Source of the DNA: Weissella confusa
Lineage (GTDB): Bacteria > Bacillota > Bacilli > Lactobacillales > Lactobacillaceae
NCBI GenBank assembly: GCA_014332815.1
Contig: JACSZT010000009.1
Coordinates: 180,156 to 244,155 of the forward strand
Direction of reading: 5' to 3'
DNA length: 64,000 bases
Numbering within the stretch: the stretch's first letter is position 1; each line of letters starts with the position of its first letter. This document shows positions 1 to 48,602 of the stretch, piece after piece. The notes under the pieces are model-generated. The model was not told the DNA's origin and searched no databases. It was given only the letters and a program-made list of their open reading frames with translations. The position numbers and the translations under genes were made by a program.

Positions 1-422
1 TAAGCTTGATGAAGCAATCATGTCACCTGGTTCAATCAAGGCTATTCGCCCAATGCGTGATGGTGTAATTGCCGATTACGAAACAACTGTTGCGATGTTG
101 AAGTACTACTTAGGTAAGGCCCTAGGTGGTCGTGGATCAAAGCCATACGTTACAATCGGTGTACCATCTGGTGTAACGGCTGTTGAGCGTCGTGCCGTTA
201 TCGATGCTGCGCGTGTAGCTGGCTAGTAAAGAAAAGGGATAAAAGCCGTGTTTTCATTTGGAACTCGAAATGTCGGAATCGACCTAGGAACTGCCAACAC
301 GTTGGTATACATTGAAGGTAAGGGAATCGTCTTGCGCGAGCCATCAGTTGTTGCGCGAAACACAAAGACTAACGAGGTTGTTGCTGTTGGTGCAGCAGCT
401 CGTGATATGTTGGGTCGTACAG
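1..422 (+). CDS. mreB: Rod-shape-determining protein MreB (partial, shuffled)
   Basis: MreB is the bacterial actin homologue that organises cell-wall elongation at the inner face of the membrane. Pieces: GTG start at 248-420, then 25-222, then 174 bp outside the window, then 1-24. The first piece gives the phosphate-1 loop ([13 protein letters not shown]) and the second gives the conserved [12 protein letters not shown] and [14 protein letters not shown] motifs; the last 24 bases fit the LDEAI segment. The rest of the gene lies left of the window. In restored order it follows radC directly, the usual radC-mreB arrangement. The stop at 224-226 is created by a block junction, so the apparent short protein is not real. 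Confidence 0.9.
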
Positions 423-1016
423 ATGCAGGTCCATTTTTTTGACTTTATGATTATTGGTTCGGGTGGGTTTGTGAGTCTAAGAGCGACAGGCGAGCTACCA
501 AAAATCGGCCTCGAAACCCTGTATGATTTATGGACGGATGCTAATAAGTTGTGATACACTAAATAAGAAATTAATGTGGCGTTTTTATGTAGTGCCATAC
601 GATGAATGATAATAAAAAAACTACGGGTGCTTGAGATACAGCAGGTTGCGCAAGGCACATTGGATGGCGTCGCAATTCACCCGCGGGACATCTTTAGGCG
701 ATTAGTGGCGTTGAATGCGTATGGGTTTATTCTGGTTCATAACCATCCTAGTGGCAATCTAAAAGCGTCGTTAGCGGATCGTCTTTTTATGCGTCAACTT
801 GCATATTGCAGCACCCTCTTTTTTATTTTCATTATACGCGTTGACCACAAAAAATCACATTTTTGGAAAAATCGACGCTTATTGCCTCTTTATTACTGGA
901 GGTGCGAAGATATGTTACAAACAATTAAGTCAGTTGCTGATTTAGGTAATTACTTAGCAAGAAAGTATGGGGATCGCCCACAGGAAAGTTGTTGGCTAAT
1001 TGCGGTGAACACACGT
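423..1016 (+). CDS. radC: Short RadC-like JAB-domain protein (shuffled)
   Basis: Pieces: ATG 912-1014, 619-816, 421-554; about 144 residues. The core carries the JAB metalloprotease-like motif HNHPSG followed by the S/D segment, and the C-terminus has the RadC ending pattern [11 protein letters not shown]. Full-length RadC proteins are about 220 residues and carry an N-terminal helix-hairpin-helix domain. Here only a short leader precedes the JAB domain, so this is a short form or a 5'-truncated relative. An RBS (ggaggtg) precedes 912. It sits upstream of mreB in restored order. The function of RadC is not settled, so I do not assign a repair role. Confidence 0.8.
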
Positions 1017-1410
1017 TGAACTGTAATTGGATCAGCGTCGGGCTCTTCTCCAAAAACAATTGATTGTTGGTCGAAGTAGAGATGACGAGATTCGTTTTCG
1101 CCGAATTCAGTTGGCAAATCAAACACTTCACGGTAAAAGCGAACCGCACGAGCAACATTTTTGCTTGGAATGCGAAGTGGGGTAAACTTACGAACGCGCA
1201 TTTAAAAAACTTGAAAAGGAGAGTTGAACGGCATGTTCACTCTCCTTTTATGTTACTTGTTGGCAATTACTTCAATGTGATTGCCCTCAAAATCGTCGAG
1301 ATGGAAGATGATGTGGCGACCATCTTCTGACTCGGTTGCTGGCTTAGCTTGTGTGACGTAGTAGTTAATGAAGTGGTTTTCGACCGTTTCCTTGTGATCA
1401 CGAACGGTTA
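1015..1410 (-). CDS. VOC (glyoxalase-like) family protein (shuffled)
   Basis: Pieces on the - strand: start at 1201 down to 1015, then 1410 down to 1253; 114 residues. The N-terminus (RKFTPLRIPSKNVARAV) and the C-terminal FHLDDFEGNHIEVIA pattern are typical of single vicinal-oxygen-chelate domains, including a glutamate near the end as metal ligand. Substrate unknown. Convergent with the XRE regulator; the two share the hairpin at 1214-1250. Confidence 0.75.
1214..1250. terminator. Bidirectional terminator
   Basis: Perfect inverted repeat (aaaggagagttgaac / gttcactctccttt) with A-run on the left and T-run on the right. It lies between the convergent XRE regulator and VOC gene in restored order. 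Confidence 0.85.
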
Positions 1411-2402
1411 CATTGGATGGCTAACCAAGCTAAGAGTGCGATGAGCTTTGCTTGGTGGGCGACTGTCGTTAGCCAGTTGGAGAACCACGAGTGGGAGGCA
1501 GTGAAGCAACAAGTTGCAAACGCTGCGGCCATTGGCATGACTGATATGGCTGATTTAGCCGAAGAGTTGGTAACCGTTTGGTATCAACGCGCTGAAAATA
1601 GGTAAAAACGCGAAATGGACGTGGCACTTTTGTATCCAGTGATTGCGGAAGTTGAGCAAAAGGATGCTTTCAACTATTTGTCAGTTATTTGGCAAAAGGC
1701 TTGGCCTCACGGTACGATGGAACGCTTAAACGCGACGACGGCTCGTTATTTAATTGAACTGCTTAAGGCAGACGAATTTGATTTAGAGACATTTAAACAG
1801 GTAGCTGCAAACCGTAAGCGTGATCCTGAGACAATTAAGGAAGTTAGTCGACGTAGCTACCAACTATTCCGCAACACCATGGCGCGCGGCTTCTTGCGCG
1901 TGGCGAGTTTGGCGGATGTGCTTCACGCACGATTGATTCCTGATGAGCATGCACAGATTGCCCAACAGATTTTGATTGATTCATTTGAAGCCGTTAAGAT
2001 TTGGCACATTCCTGTCCGGGAATTGGCGAACATCGGTATTAGCCGAAACCGTTACTACCGTTATTTGAATGAAGAAAACGATTTGCCTGCTGAAGGGTTC
2101 ATTTCGTTGATGAGTCATTTGCTTTTGACGGGTGCCGAGATTAATACAGAATTGGTTAACGGGCAAGATACAGTTGAAGGATTGATGTATGAGTTGCTAG
2201 ACCACGAACTGTTCGGGCTTTTTTACTGAAAGAAAAGTAAGCATTTTTTGTTGAACGTATGTTCCGTGGGTGGTACACTCAAACATGAGCGTACGGGCAC
2301 GATTGTGCAGAGAAATAATTATATAGAGAGATTTGTTTAGAAGGTAAAACGAATGAGCTTAATTAATCGTGAACGAATAAATGAAATTCGACAGGCAAAT
2401 TA
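1411..2402 (+). CDS. XRE/Rgg-like regulator with TPR-type C-terminus (shuffled)
   Basis: Pieces: ATG 2353-2400, 2005-2202, 1807-2004, 1609-1806, 1411-1605; 278 residues. The N-terminus has an atypical helix-turn-helix (ANIGISRNRYYRYLN), followed by about 200 residues of helical repeats, the layout and length of Rgg/PlcR-type peptide-responsive regulators. It is monocistronic, with its own promoter region upstream of 2353 and the hairpin at 1214 behind it. Which genes it controls and whether it binds a peptide cannot be read from the sequence. In the window it appears as two unrelated ORFs because of a junction at 1609. Confidence 0.75.
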
Positions 2403-48210: not shown

Positions 48211-48283
48211 GGACGTTTAGCTCAGCTGGGAGAGCACCTGCCTTACAAGCAGGGGGTCACAGGTTCGATCCCTGTAACGTCCA
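48211..48283 (+). tRNA. tRNA-Val(TAC)
   Basis: Intact; acceptor ggacgtt / aacgtcc; anticodon TAC. Directly behind 5S rRNA in restored order. Confidence 0.93.
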
Positions 48284-48285
48284 TT

Positions 48286-48336
48286 GGGTCGTTAGCTCAG
48301 TTGGTAGAGCAGTGGACTTTTAATCCATGGGTCCAG
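48286..48336 (+). tRNA. tRNA-Lys(TTT), 3' end at 47,941-47,962
   Basis: Anticodon TTT; acceptor gggtcgt with 3' strand acgaccc. One T-stem base at the junction mispairs. Confidence 0.9.
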
Positions 48337-48602
48337 TGACGCATGGAGCGGACTAGTACTAATGGTTCGAGGACTTAACCAAGTTGAAAACGTGGTGTAA
48401 GGCTCAAACGAAGTTTGAATTTGATATTGACATTATGATTCAGTTTTGAGATAATTAATCTCGTAATGCTAATTAAATTAGTACGTGTCGTGACGATGGC
48501 ACTGAGGCCACACCTGTTCCCATACCGAACACAGGCCCATTCTTTATGAAGTAAGACCCCTCAGAGATGATGAGGTAGATAGGCTAGAAGTGGAAGTGCG
48601 GT
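48337..48602 (+). rRNA. 3' end of 23S rRNA in two reversed pieces
   Basis: 5' piece 48,535-48,602 (gaagtaagacccctcagag to gtgcggt), then about 48,338-48,382 (gacgcatggagcggac to cttaacca). Joined, they form the hairpin gtgcg-gtga-cgcat and the usual 23S 3' end. The 68-bp piece is the remainder block, so the segment begins inside 23S, a typical contig break point. Confidence 0.92.

Follow-up and report, generated by a model that had tools for sequence, protein, structure and literature searches.

Errors of sequence-file handling are a familiar problem in deposited genomes, where they place contigs on the wrong strand, join them wrongly or put them in the wrong order. Reversed pieces of DNA also occur as invertible segments, such as those of shufflons and phase-variable inversions. 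To our knowledge, a chunk-wise reversal with a fixed period of 198 characters and an untouched last character has not been reported, and the titles and opening abstract sentences of the matches listed in a full-text literature search describe no chunk-reversal artefact. Here we describe such a pattern in an assembly of Weissella confusa (G000), which comprises 24 contigs and 2,294,552 bp. The stretch analyzed (hereafter called the window) is 64,000 nucleotides long and corresponds to positions 180156-244155 of contig C24, which ends at position 260369. A protein encoded in the window shares 95% identity with one of W. confusa strain VTT E-062653, the single locus found. We conclude that the 198-base scramble found there is almost certainly a file-processing artefact caused by a software error, and not a feature of the genome. 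A preliminary description of this DNA had already read the pattern as an artefact; that reading was right, and it can now be refined to a reversal of 197 characters in which the 198th is left as it was.

The scrambled part of the window was cut at the multiples of 198 in C24 coordinates, and each of the resulting 247 chunks (two of them partial, the other 245 with 197 bases) was aligned separately to two intact congeners, G013 (contig C11) and G003 (contigs C24 and C1, with 60 kb of G003:C24 compared). Matches to G013:C11 are found for 243 chunks; all 243 lie on the minus strand, and their order agrees fully with that of the window (Kendall tau 1.0). Every one of the 239 adjacent steps is positive, and 208 of them measure 198 ± 6 bp; the nine that fall outside 150-260 are as expected from insertions, deletions and partial chunks. 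G003:C24 matches 181 of the 247 chunks, all on the plus strand and in perfectly inverted order (tau -1.0), with 179 of 179 steps of the same sign and 163 of them at 198 ± 6 bp. Mean chunk identity to the relatives is 90-91%, and four chunks (33.7-35.1 kb) have no match in G013:C11 or G003:C24 by chunk alignment. When window positions 36001-56000 are searched against 20 congeners, the matches before 48.6 kb are mostly about 198 bp long; those on G003:C24 are plus-strand matches whose target coordinates descend along the window, and those on G013:C11 lie on the minus strand in the same order as in the window.

Since no matched chunk departs from the minus strand or from the order of G013, these alignments place every matched chunk where it belongs, unmoved and reverse-complemented in place. 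Thus, the 198-bp period and the back-to-front order of pieces noticed in the preliminary description are real, and the operation proposed there, a reverse complement taken chunk by chunk with the order of chunks kept, is borne out by comparison with the two intact relatives. At window positions 22994-26024, chunk ends appear to be crossed by several alignments that are 233-600 bp long. We rejected these as true exceptions because they are located in repeats; this region matches several offsets in G013:C11. In contig C18, a stretch of 595 bp (L036:10669-11263) likewise appears to be spared from the scramble. Parts of it align at several places in G003:C32, and the apparent sparing is probably an alignment effect of repeats.

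The repeating unit is composed of 197 + 1 characters: each run of 197 that has been reverse-complemented is followed by a single character, the 198th, which keeps both its place and its letter. A plain chunk of 198 characters was rejected, since one base per chunk stayed mostly unaligned and turned out to be untouched. Specifically, alignments to G013 mostly start at 26 and end at 24 modulo 198, omitting one base. This lone base sits at window positions 25 modulo 198, which are the C24 positions divisible by 198. Counting only where the neighbouring chunks align without shifts, we find an identical base in G013, in place, for 187 of 201 testable chunks, and a complementary one for 3; against G003, which runs in the opposite direction, the lone base is complementary in 146 of 159 chunks and the same in 3. 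Some of the misses (14 of 201 that differ from G013, and 13 of 159 not complementary to G003) are expected given the average chunk identity. The result recurs elsewhere in the record. For C24:1-20000, 48 untouched bases are complementary to G003, 1 is the same and 0 are otherwise, and the corresponding counts for the two components of C18 are 44/1/3 and 37/0/2.

The same position stands out when homology is set aside. Across about 650 chunks, phase 0 has a GC skew of -0.17, the lowest of the 198 phases, whereas the others average +0.12, and its composition gives a chi-square of 43.3, the largest of the 198 (the next is 23.3). In-place identity to G013, complementarity to G003 and the skewed phase 0 together establish that 197 characters were reversed and one skipped in each chunk. 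The preliminary description had placed cuts at 24/25 modulo 198, and its period stands, but what lies there is a lone base at 25 rather than one junction. Because this base did not move, the recipe offered for restoring the sequence, which splits it every 198 bp and reverses the list of blocks, leaves one doubtful base per 198.

Period and phase are tied to file coordinates. Counting starts from the first base of C24, such that window position 25 (C24:180180) equals 910 x 198, and the scramble covers C24:1 to 228756, as seen at both ends and in samples between them (1-20000, 20001-40000, 100001-120000 and 160156-180155). The pattern is therefore not limited to the 48.6 kb of the window in which it was noticed. 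Contig C18 is composed of two such components. The first ends at 60472 with a last chunk of 82 bases that is reversed through its final base (82/82 match), and the second starts at 60473, where the 198-count begins anew. An origin of the count at the start of each joined component is predicted by a file operation and not by a genetic process, and thus points to the former. The scrambled component of C24 ends in the same manner as that of C18. All 66 bases of its last chunk match C1:3963-4028, at the contig end; window positions 48548-48601 match G003:C24:1-54 (54/54), and the preceding window chunk matches 56-252. The contigs of both relatives end within this last chunk. The scrambled span had been given as 1..48602, and the 198 period does hold there, but the end is at 48601. 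Coordinates of the features are collected in Table 1.

Table 1. Positions of the scrambled component, its end and its neighbour in the window
Feature	Window position	Strand	Evidence or remark
Right-hand end of 228,756-bp component, chunks reverse-complemented in place	1-48601 (component C24:1-228756)	.	Chunk alignments to G013:C11 and G003:C24
First of 246 untouched single bases	25 (25 + 198n, up to 48535)	.	C24 180180 + 198n; in-place comparison, GC skew
tRNA cluster broken by chunking	46754-48534	+	16 tRNAs in relatives; 9 intact here, one composite
Last partial chunk, 66 bases, reversed through final base	48536-48601	.	G003:C24 and C1 matches
Join of flipped component with next: 34-bp sequence, identical to C24:164-197	48602-48635	+	Inside mucin-binding-type repeat protein gene
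Next component, normal order	48602-64000	+	Long G003:C1 alignment; 198 period not notable
594-aa ORF with Muc_B2 and MucBP_2 domains, starting at join	48618-50402	.	Pfam

Beyond the join the sequence is in normal order, and from window position 50271 onward it aligns to G003:C1 in a single alignment of 13,739 bp at 90% identity. On that contig, the listed matches to C24:1-20000 lie at 68.7-87.3 kb, and the homologues of the window from 50271 onward begin at 89.2 kb. Because these two sets of homologues adjoin in the expected order, the comparison with G003 indicates that joining put the two contigs in correct succession and that the flip alone failed. The mucin-binding-type gene at the join was probably split by this flip, since the 34-bp stretch there recurs near the start of C24. 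Contig C20 differs in its opening, where a separate piece of 139 bp (L054:1-139) precedes the scrambled component. This piece has matches in about ten G003 contigs, two of them at contig base 1, and is a repeat, perhaps the end of an insertion sequence; it is too short for judging whether it was flipped.

To what extent does the scramble reach into the rest of the record? About 444 kb of G000 was sampled, and the figures for extent refer to the sampled parts. A six-frame coding model, trained on relatives, detects frame changes and ranks the 101 periods from 150 to 250; it was applied to 21 stretches of G000 and, as controls, to 5 from relatives, of which two or three overlap the training set. 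Period 198 ranks best in 10 of the 21 G000 stretches, namely window positions 1-48601, four other parts of C24, C11, C14, C15, C19 and C20. It ranks 5th in C18:50001-70000, where two phases meet. In the ten other G000 stretches (window 48603-64000, C24:244156-260369, C8, C12, C13, C16, C17, C21, C22 and C23) its rank ranges from 9th, in C13, to 97th. We read the rank of C13, where 6 of 25 frame changes fall in the best 13-base phase, as background. Among the five stretches of relatives, period 198 is best in none, with ranks from 54th to 100th.

Homology confirms that C24:1-20000, C18, C11 and C20 are scrambled, and that C12, C23 and window positions 50271-64000 are collinear with relatives. 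For the remaining contigs, the coding model suggests that C14, C15 and C19 are scrambled and that C8, C13, C16, C17, C21 and C22 are in normal order. One portion of C20 (8001-12000) has no match in G003 when used as a 4-kb query; another piece of the same contig is scrambled. In total, the scramble is present in the sampled parts of seven contigs (C24, C11, C14, C15, C18, C19 and C20). Thus, by homology and coding model together, some component contigs of the same record are affected and others are spared. In the selected stretches of the two close relatives that were compared, the scramble is absent and genes are intact across the junctions.

Each of the 36 non-overlapping G013 ORFs in the span (at least 100 aa, called mechanically) is cut by one or more boundaries; of the 243 mapped chunk boundaries, 204 fall inside G013 ORFs. 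Lengths that the preliminary description had obtained by restoring the order recur in relatives. In G003, three intact ORFs (723, 673 and 516 aa) agree with those for nrdE, the PTS protein and clcA, and Pfam identifies them as the large chain of ribonucleotide reductase, a PTS protein with EIIC and EIIA domains (EIIB is slightly below the Pfam cut-off) and a ClC channel, respectively. Similarly, the 490 aa given for cydA is the length of an intact ORF in G013. Near the positions of nrdF and trpX in G013 and G003, the mechanical ORFs are 333 and 334 aa long.

The tRNA cluster contains 16 tRNAs in each of the two relatives, and ARAGORN finds 10 in the window. One of these, a second tRNA-Met at 47672-47745 (anticodon position 35), crosses the boundary at 47743; since the clusters of the relatives have one tRNA-Met of that form, this comparison identifies it as a composite. 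Nine tRNAs are thus intact and seven are cut, the number counted in the preliminary description. The 5S rRNA that was also described as cut is absent among the 15 Rfam matches in the window. A megablast search of window positions 26000-48600 against phages gives short matches only, and the 20 listed of 48 records all match in the tRNA cluster.

The period of 198 is a multiple of three, so that the shuffle preserves reading frames and leaves long chimeric ORFs. One such ORF, of 2,921 aa (window 26512-35277), overlaps blocks of a 3,314-aa ORF of G013:C11. The 3,314-aa ORF faces window positions 23588-34080, and the window is repeat-rich at 22994-26024 and at 26512-35277. Our guess is that these repeat-rich regions probably correspond to a giant surface protein.

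How might a file acquire this structure? We propose that, during the ordering and joining of contigs, those needing the other strand were sent through a faulty reverse-complement routine. This routine would read the unwrapped sequence in pieces of 198 characters, as a buffer of 199 bytes handled by a function like fgets in C would do, although both the buffer size and the program are inferred. The first 197 characters of each piece would be reverse-complemented in place, the last being taken for the line end, and the pieces would be written out with their order left as it was. Only in the final piece would the last character truly be the line end, and hence all bases would be reversed. Contigs already in the correct orientation would be left alone, and the pieces would then be concatenated.

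The same artefact could have had another trigger, in which the lines of a FASTA file were 198 columns wide and were flipped one by one with a length that was off by one. For full chunks this yields an identical 197 + 1 geometry. However, an off-by-one length predicts that a final, partial line keeps its last base untouched, whereas the two last chunks, in C18 and C24, are fully reversed. At either of these ends one base could match by chance, and we consider the wrapped-line trigger unlikely. We favour over it the reading of an unwrapped sequence with a buffer of 199 bytes, because the last chunks are fully reversed and a newline would be present only in the last read.

Explanations that involve no file operation fare far worse. 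In favour of misassembly through repeat-driven chimerism, repeats are found where components end: G000 contains further copies of the last chunk of C24 elsewhere, and the join falls in a mucin-binding repeat gene. Errors driven by repeats, however, yield neither a fixed period of 198 nor an untouched base in place nor a perfect order of 243 chunks, so the chunk geometry refutes this very improbable reading. The probability of a biological origin is negligible, for although about 1,155 adjacent inversions of 197 bp with 1-bp spacers, by site-specific recombination or programmed rearrangement, would formally describe the geometry, the period and phase are exact, anchored at contig base 1 and restarted at a joined component, the ten bases next to chunk ends show no motif apart from the composition of the untouched base, inverted repeats are absent from the ends (a mean of 2.47 matches in 10 for 646 chunks versus 2.48 for 644 half-shifted controls), and the inversions would break 36 of 36 ORFs, the large chain of ribonucleotide reductase among them, that relatives keep intact without the 198 period (0 of 5 stretches).

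Understood as a file-processing artefact, the scramble means nothing biologically; its use is as a database-quality flag for a public genome with broken genes. Statements drawn from G000 about missing genes, numbers of pseudogenes, gene order or phylogenetic markers are unreliable, as are its chimeric ORFs, for example that of 2,921 aa. Screening for the signature needs no reference alignment, since it can rely on the period in the coding model and on the composition of phases. If the faulty routine is part of a program for scaffolding or contig flipping that is in shared use, then other public genomes should carry the 198-character signature. This seems possible to us, if rather doubtful; outside G000, the signature scan covered the five stretches of relatives. 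If true, it would account for some of the split genes and low-completeness genomes found in databases.

As noted above, the two kinds of system closest to the G000 scramble are invertible DNA segments and errors of sequence-file handling. Its segments are reversed in place, as are those of shufflons and phase-variable inversions. Unlike those systems, its chunk ends lack inverted repeats, its period is exact and anchored at the contig start, and its segments, hundreds in number, cut through essential genes. Its likeness to known sequence-file handling errors is as follows: the scramble is limited to whole component contigs, it is absent from relatives, and it is found in an assembly of low completeness, estimated at 66.5% versus 95-100% in the 20 other genomes of the genus.
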